A stretch of 64,000 nt of DNA from Bremia lactucae (taxonomy: Eukaryota; Oomycota; Peronosporomycetes; Peronosporales; Peronosporaceae): positions 4,975,840 through 5,039,839 of the forward strand of contig NC_090621.1 in the NCBI RefSeq assembly GCF_004359215.1, given 5' to 3'. The translations under genes were made by a program, and so were the position numbers. The notes under the pieces are model-generated. The model saw only the letters and a list, made by a program, of their open reading frames with translations. It was not told the DNA's origin and ran no database searches. How positions within the stretch are numbered: the stretch's first letter is position 1; the number at the start of each line of letters is the position of its first letter. Shown one piece after another: positions 18,890-63,926 of the stretch.

Positions 18890-18990
18890 CACTCTCTCGG
18901 CGCAAAGGCGCCATTCCGTCTCGTAATTATAAGAATTCTCTTCTGCTGTAAGCAGTATGATTTTGATATATACTATCACACGGTTTTAGA

Positions 18991-19234: not shown

Positions 19235-19790
19235 GCGCAAGAACCAGCGTGCAAGACGCGTGAGTACTTCATCGACCACTGAAGGTTCGGGAAATGCAGG
19301 TGCGCAGTAGGGCGGTATGCCCTACTGACGCTGATTCTGAAGCTAACTCTAAGTTCAGTGTTATCGATCAAATGGGCAGCATAGTCCCTGAGGTGCTGAA
19401 TTTTTGAAATTTCGAACCTCAATCCTGCTTGTCTTAAGCGCTCGAGTACGAGGTTATGACCATGTGATGACCCTCCTTGTGGATTCGGATGCATCACAGA
19501 ATATTGTGAAACTCGCGGCTCTTAAACACAGACCGGGTGATGTATGAGTCCCTTTGCCAGGATAGCAAGCTAAAAGAGGCGTCCTTTCGTTTTGCGAACG
19601 TTAAGTCTGAAGGTGTTCAAATTAAACTCTGCCTTCAGTTTAAGTGACTCATCCTGTCGAGAGAAGTTCACGGTGCTAGGTATGGAGAGTCCGTATGACC
19701 TCATTTTAGGCATGCCATGGTTGGCAAGACGCCGACCATGAACAGATTGGCGTACACGTGCAGTTGCTAACTCTTAGCAGGACACCGGAA
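19235..19790 (+). pseudogene. E-2 gag end and protease
   Basis: Starts in the gag-protease junction (NQRARR, STSSTTEG). The retropepsin near 19460 reads MTLLVDSDASQNIVKLAALK; the active site is D-S-D instead of D-S-G. Further codons resemble LGMESPYDLILGMPW (19680-19715), the second protease motif. E-6 at 47104-47640 and E-3 at 32370-32061 are the same region. Several stops. Confidence 0.78.
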
Positions 19791-20528
19791 AAGGATGTGC
19801 TCCTACGAGAGGCCTATACAACTGATGTTGTGTCGAACATAGTTGAGGGTGCGTTAACGGGATGTCAAACGTAACCAGCTTGGAGAGACTGGTGTAGTGA
19901 GAAGGACGAGGACAAGTAGTCATGCGTCTAATTGTCCTGCACAGAGCCGAGAGCTTGTGGCAGCGGATAGCGAGCTGACATGAAGGAAAGCGTCGCAAGA
20001 ACCGGCACAGAGCCTAGAGCCTGGTGCTGTTGGAAGGGGTGCGTTAGCCACAAGTGCAACGGCACCCGCTTCCCAGAAAAAGGTCGTGGTGACTCGAAGA
20101 ACGAGTACCCGACAGATTAAGACGATCAAAGGCACGTCTAAACGAGCGACCTTGTGATCAGTCTTTAATAAAGATGACGAACGAGGTGTTCGAGGCCGTC
20201 AAAGACGAAATTGCGGAGGCATCCTCAGTTGAGGTGCTCCGGCAAGTCTTTAAATCTGCCGAGGAGATAGTAAATCTCCCGGAGATGTCGTGGGATCTGT
20301 TCCTTGCCGAATTAAAGGAAGGAAAGATCCACGAAATTGTCGCACCAGTTCCGGGAGAGAACTTGGTGGACTGTTGCTTGTCGTCCACAATGGACTAGAG
20401 CGTCCTAGAAACGGACAAAAAGTAACGGTTCGCTGCTCAAGGCTGGAAATCCTTGAAAGACAGTCCGTTCTTTGAGGTTCTGTGGAAACATCGCGATGTG
20501 TTCCCAGAAGAAGTGCCGAGCCGCCAAC
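19791..20528 (+). pseudogene. E-2 protease-RT linker and RT start
   Basis: Frame 20174-20398 reads NEVFEAVKDEIAEASSVEVL and PEMSWDLFLAELKEGKIHEI, an acidic helical linker. After a frameshift FFEVLWKHRDVFPEEVPSRQ opens the RT. The RT is cut at 20528 by family-G copy H in opposite orientation. The same linker is at 42153-42960 (+) and 32060-31400 (-). Confidence 0.75.
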
Positions 20529-24400: not shown

Positions 24401-24830
24401 AATTTCTCGGAACGCGGTTAGTGTCTTAAGACATGTGCATCACACATTCGCTGATAGCCAAGACAAACAGAAAGAACAAGCGGATGCCAAAGGCAGGAGT
24501 TGTACTGATTCTTATGCGTTCGGAGATTCAGTTTTACTAAATGCAAAAACTTTCTATAAATTTGGTTTCTGCGGTCTTTCAGGCCAAATTGCGCCCGCGC
24601 TTTAATAGGCCAAGAAGGGCCTACATTACATGCTATACCTTCCTCGCAAGCTGCGTACACACCCAGAGTTCTACGTTGGCTTGCTTAAGCAAGATCGACA
24701 CCCTTCCCACGTGGACTTAAAGCCGCTTGCGCCGAGACAGGCGGCCATGCCGCAAATTGCTACATCCTCATCAGGATGTCCAGTTAGCCCTTAAAATGAG
24801 ATTGTTAACGTTCCAGTTGAAAGACGGGTT
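24390..24830 (+). pseudogene. Gypsy I integrase C-terminus
   Basis: Codons read DSQDKQKEQADAKGRSC, YAFGDSVLLNAK, KLRPRF in a neighbouring frame, then LPRKLRTHPEFYVGLLKQDR and APRQAAMPQIATSSSGCPV. This is the module after the gypsy integrase core, before the chromodomain. Stops and two frameshifts. Confidence 0.78.
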
Positions 24831-24949
24831 TAAGCCGCTTTAAAAGAGCCCTCAATACGAGCAAAGCCCTCGCGAAGAAGATGCATCTCGTGAAAAAAAA
24901 GCATTAAATGCTTCCACCGACATTTCGGCCCCCTCTCGCGTAGCTCGAT

Positions 24950-25125
24950 GAGCAAGGGACCCTTCCGTTTCACGTGAAGAAGCTCCTAAAGCGAAGTTGT
25001 CGCAAGGACCAATAGCAGTATCTGGTGAAGTCGCTTGGGTACCTCTCTTTGGAAAACTCTTGAGAGTTTGAGGTACCTCTTCGGCAAGATTTCTCGTACG
25101 GAGTTGACGTTTTTTAGCGCCGCAC
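24950..25125 (+). pseudogene. Gypsy I chromodomain
   Basis: Codons read FHVKKLLKRSCRKDQ, stop, QYLVKSLGYLSLENS, stop, EFEVPLRQD: a chromodomain with Q-Y-L-V-K-x-L-G-Y and the Trp of NSWE turned into a stop. Pol ends here. AO-3 follows on the other strand after about 130 bp. Confidence 0.75.
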
Positions 25126-25249
25126 TCAGGGTGAACTTGCATCAAACGACGCTGCCCATCAATAGAAGTGAATATAGATGTATCTCTAGCCTCAGTGCGG
25201 CTTCAACCCATGAATGCGCGGGTAACTGAAGCACTGGCTAGGCCTTTCC

Positions 25250-26003
25250 TCAATTTGAGGCAGATATGCCGGACGTAACTGGCCTTTGGTCTTAAGCTTT
25301 GCAAAACTAAAGAAAAGCTCTTGTTCAAACGAACAGGAGCCACATTCACAGGCTCTCTAATGAATTAGATGTTGCGGAGGCGACGATTCGATGGACCCAA
25401 TTCTTATAAGAAGCATCGTTTGCGCTTTTAAATTCGTTAGAAACAAAACGATCGGTACCCCCTCGTTGAGGTCACCGAAGCCCCACGGACCTGATCACGC
25501 AAATGCGTCAAATACTGATGACGCGTTTTTACCTTGGGCGTAAGGTATCGCTCATGAAGAGCGTCGCGAGCAGCGAGCTCCTCCGGCGTCGTCGTCTAAG
25601 GTTCGGATGTCCAGATGGTCAAGCTGCGACCCGTAACTTCTTGGAGGCGGTCTTTAGCACTAATTGGAGTGAATCGATATTCACTATGAGCTTTTGCCTT
25701 CAGAAGGTATGCAGCTTGACGACGAGGTTGTTTCTCTCTGGAGAATCTCTGCTGTTGCTCTTCATCGAGCGGGTTCGTGATTATCTCGGCCTCCTGGTCC
25801 GGTGTCCTGCGCAATGCAGCTAAAACATCAGCGGCCATGCAACTCTGGGAACGGATTTGCGGCCCGACGAGATTCGTCCACGCGACGAGGCGCGTTCAGT
25901 TGTGTTCTGCTTTGCTTTTTCTGACGGCAACTAAGTGTGAGTCCCGAACTCTTTGCTCCTTCCTTTTCGATAAAATGATGGTGGACTATAAAAAAGTCAC
26001 ACT
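25250..26003 (-). pseudogene. AO-3: candidate antisense ORF of gypsy I
   Basis: Between the gypsy I chromodomain and its polypurine tract the minus strand has an 80-codon frame (25838-25596): MAADVLAALRRTPDQEAEII, NPLDEEQQQRFSREKQPRRQ, SAKDRLQEVTGRSL. One stop later it continues PEELAARDALHERYLTPKVK. Hydrophilic and charged, no known domain. A possible start is ATG near 26003. Only one copy is present, so coding is inferred from position and frame length; weaker than AO-1 and AO-4. Confidence 0.4.
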
Positions 26004-29090: not shown

Positions 29091-29760
29091 CATGCCTCTT
29101 AAAGGGGCAAATCTGGAGTATTATCTGCAGAGACACCCGCTCAGCCCACTACGAATCTTACGTGCCGCTTAATTGCGACGCCAATTCCTACTATCACGGT
29201 TGCAATGTCGATAGCTACTCCTGTCTTTGCGCTACCTATTAGACCCAATAATATGTCTCATTTACTAAGTGAGGATGTAGATTCGTTGCTTGTTGTTGAC
29301 TGCAATGAGTCGACAGCGCTGGCATCGCCACAAGGTGAGGATGAAGTCAGCGAGCCTAAGTGTAAGAGTGATGGCGCTTCTACTTTCATATACAAAATAC
29401 CCATTGCTTTCAACATGGAGGCGTCTAGGCAAACTTGCCTACCATCGACGAGGCAACTTTTTCTTGTCGTCTGCGCCAACTAGCGCAGCGATCATTGATG
29501 AGAGCACTGCCAAAAAAGGTGTAGTTGCTACTGCGTTGGGCAAAAACGCAAAATCTACCGTTTAGACTATCCATTTTGAAGAGTATGACGCAGAAAAGCC
29601 TGATTCTACAGCTCAACCGACGGTGTCCAGTTGATGAGAAAAGCTCGCCGCATTGAAGGCGGCTGGTATATACATCTGCCACTTCCATTCGATTGGCCTC
29701 GTTCGGATGGAACTTGTGCTTCGCACTTATGGAGCGTCACTATAGACGCTCGTGAATTTT
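29091..29760 (+). pseudogene. AO-4b: antisense ORF of E-3
   Basis: Runs opposite to E-3 pol, next to its 3' LTR. ATG at 29091 (MPLKGANLE, QRHPLSP) aligns with AO-4a (MPPKRGKPDG, QRHPHNL). The 92-codon frame from 29205 has SIATPVFALPI, LLSEDVDSLL and GASTFIYKIPIAFNMEAS. Frameshifted continuation reads SSAPTSAAIIDESTAKK, EYDAEKPDSTAQPTVSS and TIDAREF. AO-4a carries clear counterparts (SVATPIATGA, FSSEDVD, SPIAPNMETP, SDAEEPERIAPPTARE, LDARNYY). DNA is well diverged yet the peptide pattern holds, which favours a real protein. Broken by stops here. Function unknown. Confidence 0.6.
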
Positions 29761-30189
29761 GTGGCGTTTAACACTCGTGGATCAATTAACGATAGGTTCC
29801 CAAAAATCGGTCGTGTTGCGCTCTAATGAAACGAATGTTCAGTACAAAGCCGAATTATCGCGCAGTTCAGCCACATTCAGACGCGGTGAAACAACGGTCG
29901 CAGCGAATAACTTCAATGTTTCGCGTTTGAGAGAACTCATAGGCGGTACTGTACTTCCTACATCTCTTCATCACGCAGACTACTATTCCAACTGTTGCTC
30001 TTTTTCATAGGTTGACACCAGTTCCAACTTGTTGACGCGCAGGGCGTCGACCGGTTTCTAAGAGTCGAGACACTTCGGATATCTTCTACATTTGACGAGG
30101 ATCCGAAGATTATGCTTCACGGATTATACAAATGTATCGCCATCCTACGCGATACGTTTGTGAATTTATTGCGGTCCTCAGTGATGTGT

Positions 30190-39800: not shown

Positions 39801-40660
39801 TACCAGTAGTCGATAACGAGTCGGATTTGCGTGCACGGATCCTTGACGAGTGGCACGATGCCCCAGGTGGTGGCCACTTTGGCCGCGAAAAGACGTTCTT
39901 GGCTGTGTCTCGTGACTTCTTCTGGTCCCACATGAACAAGCATGCGAAATCTGTTAACAGGTGAAGCTATCTTTATCGTCGTAGCCCCCCTGCGACCATT
40001 GCCGATTGCAGCTGAAACTTAGCATTCAGTTTTGACTTCGGGCTCTTGCTCGATAGACGAGTGTCCTGGGATTTGTCAACAGCAGGATGACACACCTGGT
40101 GCCTGTTCACGCTACGATCACTGCGGCAGCGACCGCGGTGCACTTCATCAGAGCTGTGTTTCGCCATCACGGCTTCCCGGTTCGGACCGTAATCCAATTC
40201 ACATCCGCATTTATTGTGTCACTGTTCGAGCTTCTCGGGACGATAGGCAAATTGAGCGCGTGAATAGAGTCCTCAAAGATGTTCTTCGGTGCTATGCTAC
40301 TTCCTTCGCGAGCTGGAGTGCAATTTACAACTTACTGAGTTCGTACTCAAAAATGCCGATGACGAGTCAACAGGGTTGACGCTTTTTTGTGTATTTGGCT
40401 CGAGATCCTCGATTTCCTACTCTTCTAGCCGTGGGTTGCCCACGGTGCCTCGTGGCTTTACTCTGGGTGTAAGTGAATGGAATAAACAACGAACGAGTGC
40501 AGCCTACGGTATTTTGAGTGCAAATATTGTTACTCAAACCAAGGCGAAGTCTGCTGTTTCGCCTCCACGTGGTGTGGCGAATCTCGCTGGACTTCGCAGA
40601 CACTTATTGACCGTATTCGGATACGCGTTCACCTACTAGCTGAGCGTCGTCAGCCTTGTT
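39801..40660 (+). pseudogene. Gypsy G H2C2 finger and integrase
   Basis: Zinc-finger lead-in DLRARILDEWHDAPGGGHFG, REKTFLAVSRDFFWSHMNKH at 39820-39960; then degraded core codons with FHQSCV-type scrambling to 40290. Frame 40289-40639 holds FVLKNADDESTGLTLFCVFG and SEWNKQRTSAAYGILSANIV. Catalytic residues cannot be assigned with confidence. Confidence 0.72.
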
Positions 40661-41087
40661 CACAGGCTCATCAATATCGTCCTGCGCGACCTCACCATCG
40701 CAAGGGGCCACCACCGCTTGTGGACGTGGAAGGTCAGACTGCTGAACCGTGGATCGCACTATCGGTCACGAAAACCCTCTCCGCGAAGTAACACCGTCGG
40801 CTCATGAGACGCGCGCGTTTTCAACCGCGTTTTATCGTTTACGCTGGCTTGGGCTCCCACCCGAGCAGGATACTTGGGAGCCACATTCCTCGCTTCTCCG
40901 CAACGTGTCAGACGTTGTTCGAGCATATGAGTTTACGAAGTCGGACTACCCCAATGCAACCGCAGGCGTGAATGTTCTCATGGTGAACAAGAACGGTAAA
41001 GAAACCCAAGACATCGAGAACAAAACCTATTTCGTGATTCACGGCGGTGAGATTCAAAATGATGGCAAGAACAAGAACGTCGTCTGA
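40661..41087 (+). pseudogene. Gypsy G chromodomain and pol end
   Basis: Frame 40749-41087 (112 codons): HETRAFSTAFYRLRWLGLPP, EQDTWEPHSSLLRNVSDVVR, AYEFTKSDYPNAT: a chromodomain with W-L-G-L-P and DTWEP, followed by a 40-residue hydrophilic tail (ETQDIENKTYFVIHGGEIQN). Stop at 41085-41087. AO-2 ends 56 bp beyond on the other strand; here the two do not overlap. Confidence 0.85.
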
Positions 41088-41142
41088 CGAGTAGCGCGCA
41101 GCAGGGTGGGCAGACGAATGTGCCCCGCCCTGTGCTGGACAT

Positions 41143-41742
41143 TCAGCTATAATTGACTCGGCTGCCGAAAGTGGTGACGCGGACCACGAATAGCTGCAGT
41201 CCGCCTTTCATAAAGACTGTGCTCGTACTTCTTGACACAGGCTTGCTCGCGTTTACTGAGTGGATACTTAGCGAGGTGTCTTTGCCATTCGTCGCGAAAT
41301 GGACGTGGCACCGAGCCGCAGGAGTGACATGCCTCGTTGACGTAAACGTAGCCGACTTGGTCCTCATTCCAGCCGTTGCCGCATACATTTTTGCGTAAAA
41401 CGCCGATTGAGTAATCGGCGCGAATGTCGTCTCGATTGGCAAGCCATTGTGGAAAGCTCCTCCCATCCTCGAGTAATCAGCTTCCAATGCCGAATGAATG
41501 CGCACTAGAAACCTTTCAAAGCGTCGTACGCAACGTTTTCTTAAGTCTCTTTCCACGTTAACCGCGTAAACGCCGAAAGTAGTCCTGCATCGTTGCAAAT
41601 TAATCCGGAGCGTGATCTCCGGACAGCGCATAAGGGATGAGTTGTTGGTTCATCACGTGGATGGTTGCACTTCCGCTGATGGTGCTCGGGAGTGATGTGG
41701 GGTTTGTGTCGCGCGCTTCGCCATCGTGGCTTCGGTCATATC
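41143..41742 (-). pseudogene. AO-2: antisense ORF of gypsy G
   Basis: Between the gypsy G pol stop and its polypurine tract. ATG at 41742 opens MTEATMAKRATQTPHHSRAP and stops at codon 29. Two further frames follow: one open for 162 codons (41631-41143), Arg/Thr-rich; another, more protein-like, with DDIRADYSIG, VYVNEACHSCGSVPRPF, DEWQRHLAKYPLSKREQACV and KKYEHSLYERR. The CxxC and the S-x-E...YER pattern recall AO-1 (DPCSCC; SYEMREGIENLQSYYERG). The true frame is uncertain; I favour the CHSC frame. No known family. Confidence 0.5.
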
Positions 41743-41788
41743 TGTTAAGGTTTCGAGAATCGAGCACTCAGGGTTGGTGAGTGCTCTT

Positions 41789-50200: not shown

Positions 50201-50768
50201 GAGGCCGATGGTGACTCCGACAGTGAGTCAAGCGTCGATCTGGTGATGGAGACGGTGAAGGTGATAAAAATCCAGCCGAATGACTCCTCTAACTGACACG
50301 GACTGGAGAGCGAGAGATATTACGCGAGTAACGCAGATCTCTTAGCATCAGGTTTTCTAAAAGGTCCAGCCGAAGTTTAAGCCTTTGGTATCCTTGGGAT
50401 TCTTCGCTCGGATATCTTAAAGATCTGAAGTCAGTCGCGAGACTTGACAATCGAGATACCCGATCCGTCGTTCAGCAGCACTCAGCGCCTGCAACTAAAC
50501 GGATGCGGGATAGGCTGCCCGTGATTAGGGTGGGCGAAATCGCCGCTTCTATCGGGCCCTGCACTGATGGATGCTGCTGGGAACCAACGCTTCCTTGTTA
50601 GAAATATTATTTGCCCACCGCTCCGTGCAGCAGAAACATCAAATCCTCGTCCAGTGGAGAGGATACACAAAGCGTTTTGACTCTTGGGAACCGTCCGACG
50701 TACCGGGCCTAGTGTCTGCCTATGAGAAGGAGCAACAATTGTCGCTCCGCTGGTTCTGTATGGACTAG
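50201..50768 (+). pseudogene. E-7 chromodomain and pol end
   Basis: Frame 50571-50768: HRSVQQKHQILVQWRGYTKR, FDSWEPSDVPGLVSAYEKEQ, a complete chromodomain core with W-R-G-Y and SWEP, then QQLSLRWFCMD and stop at 50766-50768. The lead-in AAGNQRFL is one frame off. A 12-G run lies at 50794-50805, 25 bp after the stop. Confidence 0.87.
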
Positions 50769-50779
50769 CAGGAGCGGCG

Positions 50780-51632
50780 TGATGAGTAGAAACGGGGGGG
50801 GGGGGTACAGTACCGCAATGATTTCTTTCACACGCAAGCGAGCGTAAAATTCCGCTTCGTATTGGTCGCTTGATTTATTTAAATGCAACACGATCGGGAT
50901 CGGGGAACACGACCACGAACTATAGATGCAATAATAATTACGTGCATCGAGAGTAGCGCGCTCTAGGAGCGACGCACTTTTTCCATTCAAATAAGACCAT
51001 TCGGATGGAGGTGGCATCGGTGGTATGCCACCATTTACATATACACGTTCAATGCGACTGGCTTGTGACAACGACTGGACACGCTCACGTGCCGTCGGTG
51101 GAGCTATGCGCTCAGGCTCTTCTGCGTCAGACCCATTTTGAATGATGGTCTGAACGACAGCTGTTGTGGCTCTACCCAACTGAGAAGCAGCTGCGCCTTT
51201 ATGGCTGCGCTCTCACGAATGGTCGCTGCGCTAGCTAGCGCAGACGACGAGAGAGATGCTTTGTTGACGTAAGGTAAGTTTGCCTTTGCAACGTTGGGCG
51301 TCTCCATGTTAGGAGCAATGGGTGAAGTGTAGATAAGCAATAAAGCGCCATCATCCTTTCTCATTTACTCGCTGTGCTCATAACTAGAATAAGGTGATAG
51401 CAGCGGTGTCGAATTATTTCAGTAAATAATAAAACAATGCGACGGATCTACATCCTCACTGGAAAAGTGAAATAGATCTGTAAGTCCATCTATCGCGGCA
51501 GCACCAGTAGCTATCGGCGTTGCAACTGAGACACTAGGTGACGGCTGCGTTTTATCGCTGCGCGTGCTTTAGGCGAGGTTGTGTGGGTGTCTTTGCAGAC
51601 TACCCATCAGGTTTGCCTCTTTTAGGTGGCAT
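50780..51632 (-). pseudogene. AO-4a: antisense ORF of E-7
   Basis: Convergent with pol, in the element between chromodomain and 3' LTR. ATG at 51632 (MPPKRGKPDG), then SVATPIATGAAAIDGLTDLF, SSEDVDPSHCF. Frame 51364-51104 reads LLLIYTSPIAPNMETPNVAK, SLSSSALASAATIRESAAIK. Frame 51179-50709 (156 codons) reads VVQTIIQNGSDAEEPERIAP, PTARERVQSLSQASRIERVY, SEWSYLNGKSASLLERATLD, YEAEFYARLRVKEIIAVLYP and runs 60 bp into the chromodomain antisense. AO-4b at 29091 aligns throughout. About 280 codons if unbroken; here at least three frame breaks. No known domain. Confidence 0.62.
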
Positions 51633-52977: not shown

Positions 52978-53520
52978 ATTAATTAGTAGTCATTGAACGC
53001 TGATTGTCAGCGTTCCTTTGAGGATATCAAGCAAAGATAAATGCAATCGCCACGATTGGCGATTGCTAACTAAGGTCGACCTTATCATGTGGTTGTGACG
53101 CCAGAGATTTTGCTATTGCACCAGTAAGGGTTCTGTCTTCAACATTACTCGACGACGTAAGAAGAGCCTTTTCAAGAAGATAAGGCTCTTAAAAGGTTGA
53201 TAGCTTACCTTAGAAAGCCATCCCAACAATCCTTATAAGGAAGTCGAAATTGTATTAATCCTCAGCAGATCGATACGCAACACGCAATAGGTTACTGTAT
53301 TACACAGCCATTGCTGGCGACACACCTCGAATCGTCATATCTCCACCCATAATGATTTGCGATTACGCATCCTGTATGAGTGCCGCGCTCCACCAATAAG
53401 TGGTCATAGTGGACGTGCAAACGCCTATCTCACAAAAAGTCGTGACTTCTACTGCCACGCCAGTATAATTTCGTAAGCAAAAACATACGTGCTTGCGAAG
53501 TTTGTCAAAGGGTGAAGCCC
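52978..53520 (+). pseudogene. Gypsy B RNase H remnant and H2C2 finger
   Basis: NADCQRSFEDIKQR near 52995, then a frameshifted YHVV.DARDFAIA (first Asp). The remainder of RNase H is deleted; from 53130 the tether reads FQEDKALKRLIAYLRKPSQQ. H2C2 codons (RLRILYECRAPPISGHSGRA, YDFVSK in a nearby frame) run to about 53520. Confidence 0.78.
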
Positions 53521-54100
53521 AGTGCTTAATTCCGTGCTCCCATACAACCTCTGCCTGTTCCGGCAGAGTGTTGGCAGTCTGTATCCATGGATTTCGTCTT
53601 CGGATTTACCAGAGACGAACATAAGAATAAATTATATTTTTAATTTTAAAAACTTAGTATGGTATTCTTGTTTTGGTTGATCGTTTTAGCGGAATGGTAC
53701 ATCTTGCTGCAGTACCGGAGTTGATCACAACCAAGGGCTGTGTTCGTGTCTTCGTTGACACGATATTTCGACTCCATGGGTTACCCCACGAACTGGTCTC
53801 AGATCGAGACCCTAGATTTACGGCGGAATTTGGCAATCTGAGTTTAAATCACTTAGGACACAGTTAAAAATGTCGCTTTCTGATCATCCTGAAACAGATG
53901 GTCTGACGAAGCGGTCAAACCGTATTCTCGAAGAGATCCTTCACGGATACGTCCACTCTTTTAAGAGTTCAAGCGAGATCTTGCCGATGGTTGAATTTGA
54001 CATCAACAAGTTAGTGTATGCTTCTACAAAGCATACACCATTATTCGTGAATGGCTTACGTCACTCACGTATACCTACCCTGTTTGAGAGTAACTGTTGA
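53521..54100 (+). pseudogene. Gypsy B integrase core
   Basis: SMDFVFGFTRDEHKN near 53585 (first Asp); a 27-bp AT-rich insertion at 53630-53656; frame 53673-53867 VDRFSGMVHLAAVPELITTK, GCVRVFVDTIFRLHGLPHEL, VSDRDPRFTAEFGN (second Asp); frame 53870-54100 LSDHPETDGLTKRSNRILEE (Glu of QTERSNR is Lys), HGYVHSFKSSSEILPMVEFD. Confidence 0.87.
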
Positions 54101-54900
54101 CGAAGAAGGGAGAGGGGATCGCTCGAGCAAAGGACCTTATAGCTCTTGCTTATCACGCATTAGCGCTAATGTCAATGCGAAGGATACCGATGTGAATTTA
54201 ATTAACATTGAAGTGGACAAACTCAGAGATAACAATAATAATATTACTAGCTTTGACGACGATGCTGAAAGACTCAGCGTCGAAAATATTATTAATGAGA
54301 GCGATAATACTCTCAATTCCGAAGAGATTAATATCTTCACAGTGCGAGCCGGTCGACCTGAAAACAAAAATAAAACCGAGTCAGCAGGTGATTTCCTGTT
54401 GGCTAGAGCAGCGTTGGTCCATTTCGTACAGGATTCCATCGCTGATGCGATGGACCGACAATAACGGAACTCTTACAAAAATGAAAGAGCAAACTTAATT
54501 TCATTTAATGTTAATGATCTAGTCCAACTTTGTACGGTAAATCGACCAAACAATAGTGACGAATGTAGGCCAAGCGATGGACGCCGTTGCTGTCGGTCAC
54601 AACATCCCATTGCAAACCAACAAGCCTCTTGATTAGGTATAATAAATTACTGCCCAGGAATATCGGCCTGTTTCGTGTACTTCAACTGGGATGAGACGTG
54701 GTTTCTAAAGATCTCAATGTTCAGTAAAGTATTCTCTTGGGTCCTTTATTTGCTAGGCGTCGCACATCATCCATTACGTGTACGCATCGCCAAGGCAATG
54801 CGTACATGATCGAGATGCCTCGTAGCATGCGTACGCATCCTAAGTTTTATGTTGGGCGATTCCGCTCGTACCATTAGTACGAGGTTCTTCCGATTCTGAA
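54101..54900 (+). pseudogene. Gypsy B integrase C-terminal tether
   Basis: Frame 54051-54464: SRISANVNAKDTDVNLINIE, an Asn/Asp-rich spacer, RAGRPENKNKTESAGDFLLA, VHFVQDSIADAMDRQ. The GPF-type module follows in broken frames (LLPRNIGLFRVL at 54650 and YMIEMPRSMRTHPKFYVG at 54805). About 120 bp near 54660-54780 are foreign to the other copies. Confidence 0.8.
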
Positions 54901-56565
54901 TTACACCGAAACAATCAAGGGCACCCGCCAAAGCCTAACGGTTCCAAGCCAAAGACTCAAATCTCGGAACAGAGTCTGATTCTTTTGAACCAGACGATCC
55001 ACTCTTACCTCTAACGCAGAGATCTTCTGACGAGCTGTCACCAGCCCGTTTTGCTGGGACTGATGTGTCATTTCGTTTGCCAGTTGATCAGCCGCAACCT
55101 GCGCAATTTTCTCAACTGGTCACGAGAAACATTATCAACCGTCACCGCTAACTCGCGGCGACGGGATCGCTCGTGATAAATAGCCTCCCTAAAAAATAAA
55201 GGGTGTGATCCAAATCACGATGTTGATTCGGGCCCGTCAAACGAGGCGAACCCGATCTTTCCTTCCCCTCCACATCCATTGATGGGTGAGAAGCGTTTTC
55301 TTGTTGAAAGCTGCTTGAGCCACCGTGTGGCAAAGGGGGTTCGAACGAGTTATCTCGTTCGTTGGCGAGGGTATCCACCCTCGTATGTTAGTTATGAACC
55401 TCATTCCCAACTGATGTTGGACTTTTCGGGTCTCGTCTTGCAGTACAACACCCGATCGTCCAACATCAGTTGACCCAACCTCATCGGCAGAAGGCCCATC
55501 AGAGAACAAGCGCTTCCGGCGCTCGCAAAAGGATTAGAGGTTCTTAATTATTTGACGCATCTGTTATAGGATGAGAGTCCTCCAATTGGGATATTTGAGG
55601 GAAAATGCTTCGCTTCATGAGGGGCATGACCTGCACCCTTAAAACAGCATGGACATGAGTCCCCCCACGAGACGCATGGAATCTCTGCCTCTCCAGACAA
55701 ACAGTGCAAGCACCGACTCAGGTCCTTTCTGGAGCCGTTCGCGGAAATCATATAGCTTGTCAAGCCAGACCTCACGGCCTATGTTTTGTACATTCTGTAC
55801 AAATTCTCCGCAACCTTTGAACAAAGATTTGACATCCTTTACCCGTTTACAAGTGTACCACAGATGCCGGAAAATAGCATCGATGGAGAATTCCGTTTCA
55901 TAGTCACCAGGCTTGTGAAGCCTGGATGAGTCGAATATGATATTGATCGTTGGTCATGGGCAACCAAGGCCTCTTTTTAGAAGCGAACCGCAAAGTTTTG
56001 CGGTCCCTTTCCTATTGGTTCATATTAGCGTTAACGCTAACTTGGCCCTTGGGCGATCACATGAATCACTCCTTTCCTGGTGATGCATACTAGCAGCACC
56101 AGCAGCACGCTTCCCTTCGCGACCACTTAGTTCCTGGTGACGCATACTAACGTCACCAGAGTTATCACCCGCGGTGTCGTCTGATAATGACTTCCACCAA
56201 AGATGTCCGACGAGTCGAATAACCTCGTGATACCCTGCCTGGTTGTCACGTTAGAGCCCAACGGTTTAACGGACTCGGCCCTGGGTGATCAGGTGACCTT
56301 TTAAGTAGCTACTGAGTCAGCCGATCCCGGTGACTTGGTCCAGTCAACTACAATTGATGTAGCGCGTGACTTGTCACCATCACCTGACATGTCATCAACA
56401 GATGACATGTTGCAATCACCTACAATGGGAATAGAAGGTGATGCATTCCCTGCAGTAGACGCATTAGCCTCTACTGAAACATTTGTCTTACTGATAGCTA
56501 CCTGATCCGTGCACTGCCAGCTTAGCGGCCTCACGGCCCACGCGCACAGACTTGGTCGTCGCCAT
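54900..56565 (-). pseudogene. AO-1b: antisense ORF of gypsy B
   Basis: ATG at 56565 reads MATTKSVRVGREAAKLAVHG. An acidic Ser/Asp/Pro-rich region follows (56510-56300: NASTAGNASPSIPIVGDC, SVDDMSGDGDKS). Central part 55903-55548: FSIDAIFRHLWYTCKR, VWLDKLYDFRERLQKGPES, EIPCVSWGDSCPCCFKGAGH. It crosses the chromodomain (DTLANERDNSFEPPLPHGGS) and continues to a helical tail (TARQKISALEVRVDRLVQKN near 55030-54975). Collinear with AO-1a and AO-1c. Broken by frameshifts. CPCC and W-L-D/Q-K/R-L are constant. Confidence 0.65.
55200..55475 (+). pseudogene. Gypsy B chromodomain
   Basis: Frame 55279-55473: GEKRFLVESCLSHRVAKGVR, TSYLVRWRGYPPSYVSYEPH, SQLMLDFSGLVLQY. No stop in the domain; the DSWEP Trp is Tyr. 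Overlapped antisense by AO-1b. Confidence 0.87.
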
Positions 56566-56625: not shown

Positions 56626-57039
56626 TGTAACGGGGCACTTCCGACTTGTACTGCTTCAGCCAAGTCCAAGCGGTACCACGCGTCACTTCGCGTACACTAG
56701 TACGTGAATAGGATGTCTCTCTTTACTGCACTTGCTTTAAAGAGGGCCAAAAGTATACTGCATCTAATATTATTGAGTTCTTTTGTTTCTATCTATTAAA
56801 AGCTAACTTTATCATGTACTAATACAAAACATGTAATAAAGTCTTATCTGTCTCTCTTTTTGCGCGCGTCCAGTGCTGACTAGACCGCGGAGCAAGTAGG
56901 TATAATGGCTTATATCTACCTATGAATAAGCTTCCCGAATACTACAATGTAAAGTAAAATTCTCCGAATATTATCTACCTTTTAGATAATATATAAACAG
57001 CCTTGAGTGTCAATTTCATGTGGCGAAACACCCGTTACA
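56626..57039 (-). repeat. LTR4, 3' LTR of gypsy C
   Basis: 414 bp with inverted ends: minus strand runs from TGTAACGGGTGTTTCGCC (57039) to GCCCCGTTACA (56626). TTATCTAAAAGGTAGATAAT at 56970-56990 and a TATATA stretch nearby may be promoter elements. A polypurine tract precedes it on the minus strand. A 93-bp piece of the same LTR is at 21505-21597. No target-site duplication seen. Confidence 0.75.
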
Positions 57040-57055
57040 TCACACCTCCCTTAAA
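57040..57055 (-). promoter_or_regulatory. Polypurine tract of gypsy C
   Basis: Minus strand reads TTTAAGGGAGGTGTGA immediately before the LTR4 TGTAAC start. Position and purine content fit the plus-strand primer of an element running on the minus strand. Confidence 0.65.
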
Positions 57056-57180
57056 AGACAATCACTCTGGCTGTCATTGAATAGAGTGGTCATTATAGGA
57101 CCACTTAATTGAAAACGGTGTTGATTGGTCAGAACTATCATTTTCAATTCTATCGCCTGGTAAACGAGTCCATGCGGTAA

Positions 57181-58999
57181 GCGAATAGTGCGGGACCTTC
57201 GGCTGCGGTACATGCAGCAGCGGCCGACGCATCATCGTTTTTTACGATAGACATTTCGTTTGCCTTAATACCCTCTTCTCCCACAACACTAGATGTTGCG
57301 GGTGCACGTGGTGAAACACCACGTGAATGCGACCCCTCTTTGGAGGTCGACTATGAATGCGAGTCGGACGAAATGGCCGACTCGAGGAGAACAGAACAGT
57401 CGCCTGGTCGTCGTGAGGCGGCTGACTATGAGCTTTCGAATGAGTGAGCTCAATACGGATAGACGTGCATATAGCCTTCGCTATAGCATGTTTGGTTTCG
57501 ACGATGGGGATGATTTCTCATCGCCAGCACCGTCTCCCGTGCCGTTTCCCGCACATATTTCTGTGCGTGGTGATGACGATGACGTAAGCCATCGTTAAAC
57601 ACACAATACGGATAGACGTGCATATAGCATTCGCTATAGCATGTTTGGTTTCGACGATGGGGATGATTTCTCATCGCCAGCACCGTCTCCCGTCCCGTTA
57701 CCCGCACATATTTCTGTGCGTGGTGATGACGATGGCGTAAGCCATCGTTATACACTTCTTGTGGTACCCCTGCTTTAGTGGGTACCACTCAGGGAAGCGT
57801 AGACACTAAAATGTCTCGTCTTCTCTCTTGCACCTGAGAAGAAGCCGTAGCTTTTGCCCGAACGGCTAGTCAGTAGCTTGTCTAGAGATACTACTCCTCA
57901 CAAATAATATCCCTTAGATATTGCGACAAAGCTACATGGCCTTGATGTCTGCGTGAAGTACTTTTGCGCGGAGGAAGATTTTATCTCGATCCTTTTCTTA
58001 AGCATCGATGGTATTGTGGCAACAACAAGCGAGATAAATTCTCGCTAATGCTAGCCTGGAGCGCGCTTATTCGCTATTTCAAAATCGTTGGGAGCGAAGC
58101 CTGGCTTCAAAGACTTGACGCGATTCGCGTTCGGTTTGAAAAACGAACTCAAACCGGTGCAAGTTTTAAACTGCATCGATTGTCTCGTGAGGCAGGATTT
58201 CCTTGCCTCACTTGGGGTGATATCTGTCCGTGTTGTGTCGACAACACGAAACGGGTGAAAGGGGTTTCTTTGCCCTGGGGAAGGGCTCTCATCTCTATCG
58301 AGACGCGCAATGCGATTAACGTGTTGCAATCAATTTTCATGCGCCGGAGGCACGTGTTTTTTATGGACCTTCTGATCCATCGGATGGGTCTCTTCATACT
58401 GACGGACGAGGCCCTAAACGTCAACAACTCTCTGGGAACGAGGCTCCCAGCTGTCATGCAAAGTTCGATAGCCGGTCCAGCGAACAAGATAACTTATTCG
58501 CTGCCCCTTTATATCACGGTGGTTTACAATACGTTCCACAAGAAAACGTTGACCACCGTGGGAATCCACTAATGGTTGTGGTGGGGCAGGGGGGAAATTA
58601 GGTCCGACCTATGTGTCGGATCTAGAGTCGAAGATCGACAAACTCGACCACTACCTTTATGTATTGGATGGGGGTCTTGATCACGAACGCGGTATGTGTC
58701 ACACGTTGAAACATACGGTGCAGACTCACAGTATCGAACGGTTGGAAGATCGTTCGAAGAGTGCGTACTAAATGTTGGATTACGAATGGAATAATCACGC
58801 TCTTCGTGACGAGCTGTCGTCTGCTCGTCGCGATTTCGAGCAACTTCGGATTCGGCATGAGAATCTCCAGACTCAACATGAGAGTCTGGTTCGTGATCAC
58901 AAGAATCTATTAGGGATTCTTGAAAGGGGTGGTCAGATCCGTCCGCGGAAGAAACCACTTACTGATGGTACGGGCGGAGTCGACCAACGTAAAGCGTAG
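57181..58999 (+). CDS. AO-1c: antisense ORF of gypsy C, best preserved copy
   Basis: Gene opposite to gypsy C pol, inside the element between LTR4 and pol. The N-terminal part (57181-57450) has no ATG and reads DECDPS/DYECESDE-type acidic sequence, then a 51-codon tandem unit (MFGFDDGDDFSSPAPSP). An uninterrupted frame of 202 codons, 57964-58572, reads GGRFYLDPFLKHRWYCGN, EAWLQRLDAIRVRFEKR, KLHRLSREAGFPCLTWGDIC, PCC, ALISIETRNAINVLQSIFMR, then crosses the chromodomain antisense. One base out of frame, 58574-58999 gives a coiled-coil-like tail (YVSDLESKIDKLDHYLYVLD; LSSARRDFEQLRIRHENLQT; GGQIRPRKKPLTDGTGG) with one stop. AO-1a and AO-1b share all blocks. Cys-rich centre plus coiled coil; no family known to me. 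Not gag: gypsy C gag is at 62739-63926. Confidence 0.65.
57452..57757 (+). repeat. 153-bp in-frame tandem duplication in AO-1c
   Basis: Units 57452-57604 and 57605-57757, differing at only a few bases. 153 bp is 51 codons, so the frame (TDRRAYS.RYSMFGFDDGD) is kept; unit 1 ends in a stop where unit 2 reads Tyr. Confidence 0.95.
58340..58560 (-). pseudogene. Gypsy C chromodomain
   Basis: Minus codons 58549-58375: QRFLVERIVNHRDIKGQRIS, YLVRWTGYRTLHDSWEPRSQ, RVVDV, stop, GLVRQYEETHPMDQKVHKK. The best chromodomain of family A/C: cage region and SWEP intact, one late stop. AO-1c is open on the other strand through the whole domain. Confidence 0.87.
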
Positions 59000-59450
59000 G
59001 ATGCGTTCGCATCCTTTGTGGCAATTCTATTGTGTATGCATTGCCTCTGTGATGCAGTACACGGAATAGCTTAAATAACTTGGGTAGTAGTTACTACTAT
59101 CCACTCTAGTGACTACATGTTTAGGAAAGTTTACGGTAGACTGTACTACTAGATCAATAATTTAAAAAAATTTTAAGAACATTTGCTCTTCCATGTTTGT
59201 CTGCGATCCGTTTCTGCCGGTTCATCGCGTTAGCAATGGAATCCTGAACGAAATGGACTACTGATTCTCGATCCAGCAGAAATTTCTCTGCTATTTCATT
59301 TGTTTTATCTTTTTCAGTGCGCACAAAGCGCACTGCCATAAGATATTTATTTCTTTGGATGATGTCATTGCTTCGACATCGACACCATTTGCGTTTTTAA
59401 TAACTTCGACACGTGATGAGCATGAGCCAGAGATGGCTTTATTCGTGCCA
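58561..59450 (-). pseudogene. Gypsy C integrase C-terminal tether
   Basis: Frame 59339-59154: EKDKTNEIAEKFLLDRESVV, HFVQDSIANAMNRQKRIADK, as in A and B. 59150-58960 is degraded and the GPF module is not recognisable. Frame 58958-58569 is open for 129 codons (His/Ser/Asp-rich) on the pol strand, opposite to the AO-1c coiled coil. Confidence 0.75.
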
Positions 59451-60060
59451 GTCCTCCCCCCTTTAACTAGAGATCCCTCTAATAGGGTGGGTATGCGTTG
59501 TAGACGCATGCACCGAATTCATGATTGCAAATTCGACGAGCTCAAAAAAACTCGCTTTAATTCGGATACGATTGGACGTAACCTCAAAGTATCTCTTCGA
59601 GGACGCGGTTTTCGCGTTCCGTCTGACCATCTGTCTCTGGATGATCAAAAGCTGACTTAGTCAGCCGTGTTTCAAGAGTCGGAACTCGGATTGCCAAAAC
59701 TCCGACGTGAACCGTGGATCTCTATCGAAGACTAGTTCACGGGGTAAATTGTGGAGTCTGAATACCGTGTTGATAAAGACATGGGCAAAGTTCGGAGCCG
59801 TGATTGACTCTGGTACTGCAGAAAAATTTACCATCTTGCTGAATCCGTCTACAAAAACAAGGATTCTATTGCTTTTGTGGTCGTCTTCGGTAAAACCGAA
59901 GACGAAGTCTATACATACAGACTGCCAACATTCCCCCGAAAGTGGTAGAGGTTGAAGAGGTGTACGGAATAAAGGGTTAGCTTCACCCGTTGACATACCT
60001 AGCAAGCACGAAAGTACTTGCACACGTACTGGCCAGTATATGTCGCGACTCACTGTGAAA
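59451..60060 (-). pseudogene. Gypsy C integrase core
   Basis: Frame 60053-59661 (130 codons): SVCIDFVFGFTEDDHKSN (first Asp), LVFVDGFSKMVNFSAVPESI, LPRELVFDRDPRFTSEFW (second Asp). After a stop, DHPETDGQTERENRVLEEIL (Glu) near 59640-59580 and LVEFAIMNSVHAST at 59540. The full D,D,E set is present but split by a stop and frameshifts. Confidence 0.9.
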
Positions 60061-60360
60061 TAAGTTTTTTCACGTCCACGATGCCCACTTTATTGGTGCA
60101 TCCTGGCACTTATACATGATGCGCAAGCGCAAATCATCGTTAGTTGGGACGACGACACGCGGACTGTCGTCGGCAATGGCTGTGTAGTACAGTAATGCCG
60201 TTGCGTGTTGTGTATCGATCGGATGACGATCGATTTAAAGCCAATAAATTTTGAAAGCTTTATTGGATGGATTCATCAATTGATCCATTAAACGCAGAAG
60301 GTCTTTATTTTCGTGCAGGCTTTCTTTATGTCATAAAACAGAGTTGACGACGGAACACTT
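60061..60360 (-). pseudogene. Gypsy C H2C2 finger and tether
   Basis: Minus codons include PTNDDLRLRIMYKCQDAPIK and GHRGREK-type sequence at 60165-60075, the zinc-finger His part, and CVLACYVN for Cys. Broken by TAA near 60060. The upstream tether codons (FYDIKKACTKIKTF) are at 60350-60300. Confidence 0.7.
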
Positions 60361-60830
60361 TTAAAGCGTGTTACAACAGTGGGATATTTTTTCACTGTTG
60401 GAGTGCGCTGTCGGTTCAAAATCGAGTCGGCGTGATAACGCGTCAGCGACGACATTAAATCGTCCTGGTTTATATTCCACGGAGAAATTATACTCCGCAA
60501 ACGAGGATATACACCTCTTCATTCTTTGCGAGAAGTGTGTTCTGTTTACGGCCGTGCGAAATGACGAATAGTCCGTATATACGATGAACGGTCTATCTCC
60601 GAGGAGATAGACCCTAAATTTAGCCAGTGTATATTTCATGGCAAGGTGTCCCTTATCATGACTGGGTAATTGCGTTCAGCTGGTTGCAGCTGACGCGATT
60701 GGTAACAGACGACGCGCTCCGCGCCGTCTGTATCTAATTGCATAAATGCACAGCCGATTGCGAAATTGATGGCGTTACAGACCACATGGAATGGTCTGTC
60801 AATCGCCAAGATGGGTGATTGCATCAAGCT
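60361..60830 (-). pseudogene. Gypsy C RNase H
   Basis: Frame 61199-60636 ends with FHVVCNAINFAIGCAFMQLD (the Asp of CDAS is Asn) and VVCYQSRQLQPAERNYPV. Frame 60639-60361 continues MKYTLAKFRVYLLGDRPFIV, YTDYSSFRTAVNRTHFSQRM, VEYKPGRFNVVADALSRRLD. TDHASLR is TDYSSFR. Almost continuous. Confidence 0.88.
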
Positions 60831-61560
60831 ATGCTTTATTTCCTTCAAAGGAACACTTTCAATCAGCGCTCCATTACCATTCCTCGTCTTTTTCAAGAGA
60901 CATGAGAGATGAATTGTCATCTCGGAATAATAGCGCGAGTACTTGTGCAAACACGCCGCTAGTTCAAGGAACTTTCGAAGTCCCTTGGCATCGACCAGAA
61001 CTAGCCAGTCGGTATTTGCCTTGATCTTCTCGGGATCAGGGCGCACGCCGTGTTTACCGACGATGCACCCAAGAAGTGGTACCTTGCCTGCAGCGAATTT
61101 ACACTTCTTGAGATTTGCGTACAACTTGTACTTTTGCATAAGTGTAAGAACCTCAAGAACGTAAATTTTATGAACTTCCACGTCCGTCTTTCCGTCCATA
61201 GCCCGGCTATGGACGAATACATAGTCGAAATAACTCGTTCGAATTCTCGCACTGTCTCAAAAGATTTGTCACGCATCTGTTGAGTGTGACGGGGCGTTCC
61301 TAGCCATTTCCAAAGCATCCCACTGGGAGCGCTCACTGCTGTGTACGGGGATGTCCCGTTCACGCATAAGGATCTGATAAAATCCGTCCATTAGATCATA
61401 GACAAAAAGGTGGTGCTCTCTGACATACCGTCTATAATTACGTCTTTCATAGAATCGGCTTTTGAACCGGTACCGTTGCAGCATCCAGCTTATTGAGTGC
61501 GTGCACTATCCGCCACCCCCAGTGGTTTTTCGCGCACAGAAGGTCGGAGAGCTATGTGGG
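60831..61560 (-). pseudogene. Gypsy C reverse transcriptase
   Basis: NKLDAATVPVQKPILW-like codons near 61490-61440, then frame 61484-61269 LFVYDLMDGFYQILMRERDI. Frame 61363-61001 TAVSAPSGMLWKWLGTP. The catalytic box near 61220 reads Y-F-D-Y instead of Y-F-D-D, before FVHSRAMDG. The thumb is open: LTLMQKYKLYANLKKCKFAA, GKHGVRPDPEKIKANTDWLV, LRKFLELAACLHKYSRYYSE. Least decayed RT, but the active site is altered. Confidence 0.87.
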
Positions 61561-62449
61561 GAGGTTGACTCCCTAACATGCCCGTTTTTAATCAATCGAT
61601 AAGAAAATTATCGGTCGCAAGTACTTGTTCACGAGGCAGTGGCCACTGTTTGATGACACAGTACTTCGAGCCCTGTTTGAGCTCGATCTTATGTCGAGTG
61701 TCTTTATCCTTAGGCAACTCGCATGGAACTGCTTAAGAGAATATATCCCTCAATCTAATAAAATCTTTGTATATAGGATTTGTCTAATGTGACTCCCAGG
61801 ATTGAGTTGTTTATCTCTCAGACCGAGTCTTCACATCGAGAACACTTTCGTCCATCGACGGGCGGCTATGAACCCGTTCGTTCTCTGCAAAAACGACCGC
61901 TGATGTGTACGCTGATCTGCTTGATTCTGCCACTGTGTAGATCTTTCGAGAGCCGTTCAGGTTCTACGGTTGCAAAATGAGTTATCTCTGAAGTTAACTT
62001 CGGAGGCGCATACAGATCAAGGTATAAGCGCCTAATCTTGATCGGTCATTAACCAAGACATTCAATGTCTCGATTTCTTCCTAATACCCCTTTTACCACA
62101 GGCTACCGAGGGATGAATCTCTCGGGAAGCTGAAGTCTAGTCACTTTAGCAATGACTGTCGCCCGCTAGGCGTACATCCATGTCTTAATCCACTCGACTT
62201 ATTTGAGTGGTGGACCTTCGGCGCTGCCTGTGTATTCGCACAGCCGCCGGTAGCTGGCTTCACAGTGTGATTAGTCATCACACTATAATCTTGCGCAGTC
62301 GTACTGATGACTGTATCACAAGTGAGGCCATCGCACTCCCTCGTAGTACATCCACACGCTTATGGACGCTCCAAGACGTTCGTTATATGGCCATCTGATG
62401 AACAGGTGGCAGGCATCTTCACGGGTCGATACTGCCAGCTGATTCTCGG
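61561..62449 (-). pseudogene. Gypsy C protease-RT linker
   Basis: Between protease and RT. The RT entry HKIELKQGSKYCVIKQWPLP lies at 61700-61640. Upstream, ENVLDVKTRSER-like codons (61860-61800) match SSSMDESNLDEKTR of gypsy A. The remainder is degraded, with many stops. Confidence 0.6.
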
Positions 62450-62738: not shown

Positions 62739-63926
62739 CTAAGTGACAAACCATTCGTTACTTTTAACTTCAAGGTGATGAGATACCTCATCACCAGGTG
62801 CAGAGACACACAATGACTCTGTATTTAGAGCAACTTTCGTCAAAAGATTTGCAAATTCTCGTAAGGTTGCTGGATAAGTAGGGAAATGCGCCACTACCGA
62901 CCCCGACCGTTTTTTGGCGGCCCGCCTCGCTGTTGCGATTCGCGACAACGTCGGACCCGCGACCGTTGCCCTTTTGGCATTCGGTCCATAAGTACGTTCA
63001 GAACCCCTAGGTACTGGGCGTGGGGTACAACACTCATGAGCGTAGTGATCTAATTTTTGACAGCGATTGCATCCCTGCAATCGCTTATTGTTCGAAAAGC
63101 GAGATCTGTCGCTTTCGATGAAAGAGAGGTTCATAGGCTCTGGACTTCCAAGCTCTTGTTGTCTCGGAGGACGATACGATGACGAACTAGCTTGAGCCTG
63201 TATCAAACTAAATTTCTCCTGTCTCGCACCAACATTGCTTCTACAAGCGTATCCAGTTCCAAGCGGAACAGATGGGTCTTCACGGGACCATCCGTAAGAC
63301 CTTGCATGAACACCGTGATCAACGTCTGTTCATGACCTGGATTGTTGGTGATACAAATTGCTACGAACTGTATTTGCTGGGCATAAGCGTGAACATCACG
63401 CTTACCTTGCATGAGTTTCAGAAGCTCTGATCGAGCTCTGAACTCAGCTCTAGGCGGTTCAAACGTCTGTTTAAGCCGGGCTTTAGAAGCCTATAGCGAC
63501 CCTAAGAGATACGGGTCGCGCAACTTGAGGCCTACTGCCTAAGTTTTGGCACGGCCTGCCAAATTTGACTGAGCAAATGCGACTTGCATTTGCTCGTCGA
63601 CGATGTGACGAGCCCCTATGGCATCGTCCAACTCGGCAAACCATTTCAAGAGGGAGTCTTCTTCGACTCATCTGTACTTAGAGATGTCAACCTATAAGGT
63701 TTCCGGACGACGCGTGTGCGTTATCCCATGTACAGGGGTCTGTTTCTGTTGCAATATATAACAGTTCTGCCTGTTGAGAGCCTTGCTGATCAATCGAGGC
63801 TACTTTCAACTTCACCTCGTCAAGTTCATGTTGTTTGAACTTTGTGATGGCTGAATAAAAGGCATCTCTGTCTAAACCGGAAAGCATGGGCTTGATGACA
63901 TCATCCCCGCGGTCGTACTCACTCAT
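62739..63926 (-). pseudogene. Gypsy C gag
   Basis: Start at 63926: MSEYDRGDDVIKPMLSGLDR, FYSAITKFKQHELDEVKLKV (N-terminal helix region). Capsid 63650-63203: LLKWFAELDDAIGARHI, FEPPRAEFRARSELLKLMQG, HEQTLITVFMQGLTDGPVKT. Frame 63206-62739 (155 codons) holds PEPMNLSFIESDRSRF, an intact CCHC knuckle CNRCQKLDHYAHEC (63071-63030) and the run-in to protease. Frameshifts near 63670, 63480 and 63206. Upstream 63927-64000 is 5' leader; the 5' LTR is outside the window. Confidence 0.88.

Follow-up and report, generated by a model that had tools for sequence, protein, structure and literature searches.

An antisense gene, here called AO, lies between pol and the 3' long terminal repeat (LTR) of chromodomain Ty3/gypsy elements of the oomycete Bremia lactucae, and in the elements that bear it AO is a conserved protein-coding gene in this genome. 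The window, that is, the whole stretch of 64,000 nucleotides analysed (contig NC_090621.1, positions 4,975,840 to 5,039,839, forward strand), is located at the end of its contig, and the gene under study is the AO-1 copy of element C at 57172-58999 on the plus strand. The genome searched was the same assembly, which comprised 115,934,607 bases in 220 contigs. Four families were distinguished and designated as AO-1 to AO-4. We consider it probable (roughly 60%) that AO is a genuine antisense accessory protein gene of chromodomain Ty3/gypsy elements in oomycetes, probably encoding a nuclear coiled-coil regulator; the overlap of AO with pol is best read as an old antisense overlapping gene.

Six-frame searches of the assembly revealed at least 151 matches for AO-1 (best 150 of 6240 candidates), 119 for AO-2 (150 of 150 candidates scored), at least 150 for AO-3 (best 150 of 1464 candidates), and at least 159 for AO-4 (best 150 of 2753 candidates). 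These matches are stretches and not copies, and a broken copy may count twice. A pol hit was obtained in 51 fetched loci, and in 48 of these AO ran convergent to pol on the opposite strand (29 of 30 for AO-1, 9 of 11 for AO-2, 8 of 8 for AO-3, and 2 of 2 for AO-4). Six duplicate or repeated loci had been removed before this count, which retained the duplicate pair L063 and L064 under AO-3 and included four copies from the window itself. Loci without a pol hit numbered 2 of 32 for AO-1, 1 of 12 for AO-2, 1 of 9 for AO-3, and 10 of 12 for AO-4; the pol queries contained none of the AO-4 family, and gaps of at least 100 N were present in 9 of the 12 AO-4 loci. The three exceptions to convergence were L002, where the nearest pol piece was of another family, L040, where AO and pol were on the same strand, and L069, where the pol of a neighbouring element was nearest and the element's own pol was convergent. 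The sequence-only reading of the window had proposed antisense sequence between pol and the 3' LTR in four gypsy families, and this was borne out by the orientation count and by the family profiles, which placed AO-2, AO-3, and AO-4.

Two recent copies, L069 and L070, each contained an unbroken AO-2 frame of 494 aa, so that among the copies tested no intact element lacking the open frame was found. L069 (C12:714500-724400) had LTRs at about 1803-2118 and 9568-9883, which were 98.7% alike over 317 bases (97.9% over 336 columns that include sequence past the LTR). Its minus strand carried, between the LTRs, a gag with matches to Ty3_capsid, Retrotrans_gag, and zf-CCHC in a Pfam scan, pol pieces spread over several frames, and an integrase C-terminus matching SH3_Tf2-1 and Chromo; the chromodomain (PF00385, E 5.5e-12) was at the end of pol. 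The plus strand carried AO-2, with its ATG at 2225 and its stop at 3707-3709, and the polypurine tract, read on the pol strand, was located at 2119-2136 and abutted the LTR. Gag, pol, and AO all lie between the two LTRs, and AO as the gag of a nested element was ruled out for this copy. L070 was 98.0% alike to L069 over 3934 columns that include AO, and its pol matched RVT_1, H2C2, and rve and had one RNase H region, the matches lying in two frames. A second polypurine-like tract was observed after the far LTR of L069 (9568-9901), so that L069 apparently stands in tandem with a second element sharing that LTR. For this reason, the identity of its LTRs gives no more than a rough indication of age. 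Between the protease and reverse transcriptase (RT) of L069, tandem repeats offset by 66 bases or multiples of 66 were observed (L069:7482-7874).

The AO frame was far more open across the overlap than pol codons would allow by themselves. In L069, pol was open opposite AO for 1094 nt and the AO frame had 0 stops in 364 codons; synonymous permutation of the pol codons gave a mean of 10.2 AO-frame stops, and no zero count occurred in 2000 permutations. Up to the end of the chromodomain, 0 stops were found against 3.8 after permutation, with 0.9% of permutations at 0; this figure is the safer one because pol may not really extend past the chromodomain. The overlap in L070 had 0 AO-frame stops against 9.8 after permutation. 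Past the AO stop, in the same pol frame, the AO frame had 9 stops in 163 codons. In RT/RNase H control stretches, the three plus frames had 14, 14, and 24 stops in L069 (395 codons) and 33, 29, and 29 in L070 (871 codons).

The convergent genes overlap by about 0.6-1.1 kb, and the layout was common to AO-1, AO-2, and AO-3 (one copy each), with the coiled coil opposite the linker between the SH3-like domain and the chromodomain, a flexible stretch opposite the chromodomain, and a folded domain beyond. In L069 (AO-2), the folded core was located at 2369-2818 and faced the open pol tail from 2613 on, the RS-rich stretch was at 2867-3082, the chromodomain was opposite 3081-3272, and the coiled coil at 3374-3562 was opposite the linker; the AO frame ended at 3706 and the SH3-like domain at 3699. 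In L033 (AO-1, oriented), the core was at 1253-1651, the chromodomain at 1817-1972, the coil from 2035, and a basic stretch at 2362-2391, with the AO end at about 2421 and the last conserved SH3 motif at 2393-2422. In L071 (AO-3), the coil began at 3401, AO ended at 3637, and the SH3-like piece ended at 3640; a chromodomain-like motif was found near 3299 in a decayed frame. Thus, the AO stop coincided with the end of the integrase SH3-like domain in all three copies. In the same three copies, the first codon positions of AO faced the first positions of the pol chromodomain frame, and the SH3-like piece of L071 was in another frame than its chromodomain frame. Because geometry and codon phase are equal in three families (one copy per family), they argue for one ancestral overlap behind AO-1, AO-2, and AO-3; the same constraint acting in each family could also produce them.

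Under protein selection followed by neutral decay, variants shared between copies would be expected mostly at third codon positions and one-copy variants evenly over positions, and the counts showed this pattern. In the AO-1 core (32 copies), variants in at least three copies fell at codon positions 1/2/3 as 33/31/60 (p 0.0018), with one-copy variants at 112/112/102; the corresponding counts in the AO-2 core (12 copies) were 39/23/81 (p 7e-9) and 60/57/68. Variants in at least two copies were distributed as 48/48/75 (p 0.014) in the AO-3 centre (8 copies; one-copy 125/117/124) and as 42/33/61 (p 0.011) in AO-4 (12 copies; one-copy 69/74/72), where those in at least three copies gave 22/21/39 (p 0.024). 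The third-position signal of AO-3 and AO-4 is weaker than that of the AO-1 and AO-2 cores. For comparison, the pol stretch of the AO-1 loci had shared variants at 32/31/54 and one-copy variants at 155/161/149. These tests were made on tblastn pieces, which favour conserved stretches, and the copies are related, with the p values serving only as a guide; the even one-copy counts argue against selection of pieces as the cause of the bias.

Median omega (dN/dS) was not near 1, as it would be for a frame of no consequence to the protein, but 0.47 in the AO-1 core (495 of 496 pairs usable) and 0.29 in the AO-2 core (41 of 66), with 0.64 in the pol stretch of the AO-1 loci (347 of 348). The AO-1 core is outside pol, and the AO-2 core partly faces the open pol tail in L069. 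The AO-2 coiled coil had an omega of 0.37 (21 pairs), and its shared variants were too few for the position test. A frame-free DNA alignment of trimmed, oriented copies (27 AO-1, 10 AO-2) again showed the third-position excess in the cores: 8/16/34 in AO-1 windows 60-509 pooled (separate p 0.019, 0.31, and 0.009) and 14/10/47 in AO-2 0-299 (p 0.003 and 5e-7). In the remaining windows of this alignment there was no significant third-position excess, and in three of them the deviation was at position 1 or 2 (p 0.010-0.028). Shared variants were sparsest in the AO-1 core, with 17-24 per 150 nt vs 29-124 elsewhere in the region.

Protein searches revealed relatives of AO-1, AO-2, and AO-3; the named ones, of AO-2 and AO-3, come from several oomycete genera and are known as proteins, apart from their strand relative to pol. 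AO-1 had 9 (P0001-P0009); AO-2 had at least 18 among the best candidates, from Peronospora destructor, seven Phytophthora species, and others; AO-3 had at least 37 among the best candidates, from Peronospora matthiolae, P. destructor, two Hyaloperonospora species, Albugo laibachii, and others. All were named hypothetical, unnamed, or uncharacterized, and no host function name, looked for as a sign of host gene capture, was found among these 9, 18, and 37 relatives. Pfam scans of AO-1, AO-2, and AO-3 proteins and of the AO-4 frame in the window gave no family above cut-off. In particular, no gag family matched the AO proteins scanned, and neither PF04195 (Transposase 28) nor bZIP matched the AO-1, AO-2, and AO-3 proteins, in which a coiled coil was predicted. 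No known silencing-suppressor domain was found in Pfam and NCBIfam scans. No transmembrane-like segment was found in nine AO proteins, in which the highest 19-residue hydropathy mean was 1.16; AO as an env-like ORF (open reading frame) was ruled out, being antisense and having no hydrophobic segment.

In AO-2 proteins, the W-C-A-F-I-R motif was near-invariant and four cysteines were conserved at 90% or more; their middle part was RS-rich, and a coil lay at the C-terminus. AlphaFold2 modelled AO-2 with a helical core block of pLDDT 64-90 and a coil of up to 95 (mean 57.7, pTM 0.28), and AO-3 with a core block of 60-91 and a coil of up to 95 (mean 62.3, pTM 0.39). Foldseek found no solved structure at E <= 0.001 for either model, and no viral model for AO-3.

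AO-1 and AO-2 are possibly one protein family. Comparison by hhalign gave p 0.035 at the AFIR motif, the AO-1 profile matched AO-2 proteins with a best E of 0.003, and the N-terminal scores of 5 of 18 AO-2 proteins were above the best of 1800 shuffles (10.5 vs 6.0); the collinear motifs compared were PW, W-x-AFIR, and C-x6/7-C-P-x-C. By hhalign, AO-3 matched AO-2 with p 0.011, over a stretch that takes in sequence opposite the chromodomain; this similarity may reflect no more than constraint on pol. No match of AO-4 to the other AO families was found by hhalign or profile search. The earlier expectation that AO is common to several lineages was confirmed by the four families here and the relatives in other oomycete genera; a common protein family is possible for AO-1 and AO-2, and the comparisons gave no evidence that AO-3 or AO-4 belongs to it.

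The map of element C was obtained by tblastn, the queries being pieces of pol, gag, and AO taken from other copies. On the minus strand were its gag (62897-63819, found with the gag of another copy), protease (62974-62422), a decayed stretch of RT, RNase H, and integrase core (59490-62053; RT 62053-61604, RNase H/integrase 60962-59490), the integrase C-terminal part (58914-59342), and the pol linker with chromodomain (58357-58799), which is opposite the C-terminal half of AO-1. Because the pol of element C is on the minus strand, its AO-1 is convergent and overlaps the 3' part of pol. As the sequence-only reading had it, AO is an extra gene beside the element's own gag, both here and in L069. 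A polypurine-rich tract, read on the pol strand, was located at 57040-57060 on the minus strand and adjoins an LTR at 56626-57039 (minus strand) with the inverted repeat TGTAACGGG/CCCGTTACA at both ends; this LTR was assigned to element C as its 3' LTR because the tract is on the side of C. The terminal motif TGTAACGGG was common to LTRs of AO-1 and AO-2 elements (window 56626, 57039, and 12429; L069:1803 and 9568).

The AO-1 copy of element C is dead, with internal stops, frameshifts, and a tandem duplication. Its ATG is at 57172, with a stop two codons on, and its TAG is at 58997-58999. An antisense frame had been claimed at 57181-58999; the antisense reading is present there, but it is not one open frame, since homology to P0001-P0009 falls in about four pieces (57181-57447, 57458-57760, 57763-58359, and 58604-58996). 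The core was placed at about 57946-58359 and the coiled coil and basic tail at 58604-58996. The longest stop-to-stop frame was 208 aa (57946-58572), its last part being out of frame with the homologues. The duplication, of about 153 bp, is in the N-terminal part (57451-57755, plus strand), where two 152-nt copies, 97% identical, are 153 nt apart. The distance from the AO start to the LTR was 132 nt in C, 146 nt in element A, 106 nt in L069, and 60 nt in element B. Shortly before the AO-1 ATG (window 57100-57172), a stretch that may resemble the oomycete initiator motif was seen in three copies (L001, L013 = L031, and L019).

The same arrangement was repeated, as had been noted, in elements A and B. 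The decayed AO-1 of element A (10492-12282, low end approximate, minus strand) is convergent with a pol on the plus strand, the element running from gag at 5919 to the chromodomain at 11272. The decayed AO-1 of element B (55489-56565, minus strand) is convergent with the integrase and chromodomain at 53130-55449 on the plus strand; protein homology ends at 55489, and DNA repeats in common with A extend to about 55009. A fourth AO-1 fragment, missed in the sequence-only reading, was found at 14255-14512 on the plus strand, convergent with a chromodomain (15304-15194) and integrase (16039-15704) on the minus strand. Fragments of the other families were placed by family profile, with E < 1e-10 for the best piece of each family and weaker values for the outer pieces. 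AO-2 fragments of family G (40607-41767, minus strand; best piece 41150-41476) are convergent with a chromodomain at 40833-40937, AO-3 fragments of family I (24855-25895, minus strand) with an integrase C-terminus at 24420-24689, and AO-4 fragments of family E (50712-51568, minus strand) with a chromodomain at 50595-50741, all three of these pol pieces being on the plus strand. A second copy of AO-4 fragments was found at 29103-29768 on the plus strand.

Window positions 5000-13000, which hold element A with its broken AO, were found at 19 places including the window itself, with 100% identity over 8001 bases. Positions 1-6000 were listed at 19 other places with 100% identity, and 18 other places carry both blocks. 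The neighbouring stretch at 13000-17886 was 94-97% alike. The presence of a decayed element within a block of 13 kb or more that is identical between places points to a large unit having spread very recently, or to repeats having been filled in during assembly. A second block with other bounds (16346-20000) had a 100% identical partner on contig C10 at 5374894-5378548. Elsewhere, an AO-1 element was found to adjoin an array of roughly 1-kb tandem repeats that were 93-96% alike (L032:3018-7632), and an open frame past the gag end of another AO-1 element (L033:64-717) resembles a Crinkler-type N-terminus.

AO begins some 60-150 nt inside the 3' LTR and reads tail-to-tail into pol up to the end of the integrase SH3-like domain, and according to the proposed mechanism its transcription would be driven by an antisense promoter within or next to the 3' LTR. 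The overlap is shared by setting flexible parts of one protein opposite folded parts of the other. The protein would combine a core of helices with a flexible middle part, which is RS-rich in AO-2, and would end in a coiled coil with basic stretches; it may act as a nuclear oligomer on the element's own RNA or chromatin. AO would thus be an element-encoded regulator, with a layout comparable to HBZ of human T-cell leukaemia virus type 1 (HTLV-1) and to plant antisense ORFs. The nuclear regulator is the leading idea, held with moderate confidence, because of the coiled coil, the RS-rich and basic stretches, and the comparison with Grande GENE23 and HBZ. A more specific scenario is put forward tentatively and is more doubtful: one ancestral integrase-chromodomain overlap may have given rise to AO-1, AO-2, and AO-3, and an HBZ-like regulator, arisen independently of retroviruses and plants, may control or shield the element during convergent transcription.

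Several results weigh against the reading of AO as a genuine accessory protein gene and regulator. Codon bias was slight in the N-terminal part of AO-1 (36/33/46, omega 0.62) and absent from the RS/linker part of AO-2 (12/16/11, omega 0.79) and from the C-terminal part of AO-3 (44/42/41). In an earlier, faulty alignment of whole AO-1 loci, in which 28 sequences of 3.6 kb took up 10470 columns and the reference was reversed, 300-nt windows gave no clear sign of codon periodicity (lowest p 0.049). When 3324 frames were searched with the AO-1 profile, the AO-2 core frames of the AO-2 loci were not ranked, which also speaks against a single AO-1/AO-2 family. The fold gives no hint of function, because Foldseek matches were absent at E <= 0.001. 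Moreover, the 19 identical places of element A reflect recent multiplication or an assembly artefact, without need of AO in cis.

AO could instead be a structural or assembly protein of the particle, such as a second gag- or nucleocapsid-like protein, or an integration cofactor in it, and the coiled coil, the basic stretches, and the four cysteines of AO-2 would suit nucleic-acid binding too. We regard this as unlikely: L069 already carries a gag that matches capsid and zinc-knuckle families, AO has no gag-family match, and a particle protein would have to match gag-pol output, for which a separate antisense transcript would be an odd source. Another improbable explanation is that AO counters host silencing, in that convergent transcription would yield double-stranded RNA and AO would shield the element from small-RNA or chromatin silencing. 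The length of the convergent overlap would fit, and in Phytophthora infestans gypsy elements are matched by small RNAs from both strands, according to the consulted part of PMC3522703; however, the domain scans found no silencing suppressor, and this analysis gave no link of AO to small RNAs.

Non-coding antisense RNAs are known in other retroelements, as the consulted part of PMC7264820 describes, so the antisense transcript might matter and not the protein, the frame being incidental. This RNA-only reading is largely refuted by the third-position bias in the cores, omega below 1, the unbroken frames in recent copies, and protein conservation between genera, and we give it very little weight. 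It is scarcely credible that AO belongs, as gag or as some other gene, to a different element inserted beside pol: copy B does start 60 nt from the LTR, where a gag would start, but AO occupies the same convergent place in four families, with the same stop point and phase in three, overlaps the pol chromodomain region, and lacks a gag match beside the element's own gag. Least of all is the frame open only through pol codon usage, an artefact ruled out in L069 and L070 by synonymous permutation; part of AO does overlap pol, and part of the AO-3/AO-2 profile similarity is opposite the chromodomain, but the conserved core is located past the chromodomain, and the AO frame past its stop and all plus frames of the RT/RNase H controls carry many stops.

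Comparison with known systems places AO, read as an antisense accessory gene, near HBZ in layout. HBZ of HTLV-1 is an antisense gene that encodes a coiled-coil nuclear regulator. Like HBZ, AO is antisense, starts near the 3' LTR, and has a predicted coiled coil; unlike HBZ, it has no bZIP family, and the likeness is one of layout. An antisense promoter is present in the HTLV 3' LTR, according to the consulted part of PMC7264820.

Among oomycete elements, the Ty3/gypsy element Chronos has a chromodomain at the pol end and a second, plant-type RNase H in the consulted part of PMC5348765. L069 resembles it in having a chromodomain at the end of pol, and L070 differs in having one RNase H region in pol (one copy scanned). 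The words 'antisense' and 'opposite' are absent from the main text of the Chronos paper (PMC5348765). Among the papers listed by the literature searches, judged by titles and abstract openings and with subscription papers and Repbase entries outside that scope, no description of an antisense gypsy ORF in oomycetes was found.

Plant antisense ORFs (Retand, Grande gene23, RIRE2, and PvRetro13) are located between pol and the 3' LTR, are kept across families, and have a suspected nuclear role, as stated in the consulted parts of PMC7264820 and PMC11963269; Grande GENE23 is nuclear according to the former. AO is like the Retand-type ORF in being antisense to gag-pol between pol and the 3' LTR, and differs from it in having no TRP28 (PF04195) match and an oomycete host. 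Retand has a region of 2.9-6.6 kb between pol and the 3' LTR, whereas in three families AO shares sequence with the pol linker and chromodomain, in one and the same geometry; Retand elements are non-chromoviruses, whereas AO-bearing elements have a chromodomain. An antisense ORF of Boty is located between pol and the 3' LTR in Botrytis cinerea and Sclerotinia sclerotiorum in the consulted part of PMC7264820; it is like AO in its antisense place outside plants, is fungal, and is likened to AO by description and not by sequence.

Antisense extra ORFs, with obscure roles, were thus known before in plant gypsy elements and one fungal element, and the AO protein families and their overlap with pol look new, as does the host group. 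Naming the AO proteins would clean up oomycete annotation and make their function testable, and the AO/pol overlap is a natural case for how two antisense genes share constraint. New families at a similar place in distant eukaryotes suggest repeated gain of an antisense accessory gene by LTR elements, as in deltaretroviruses.

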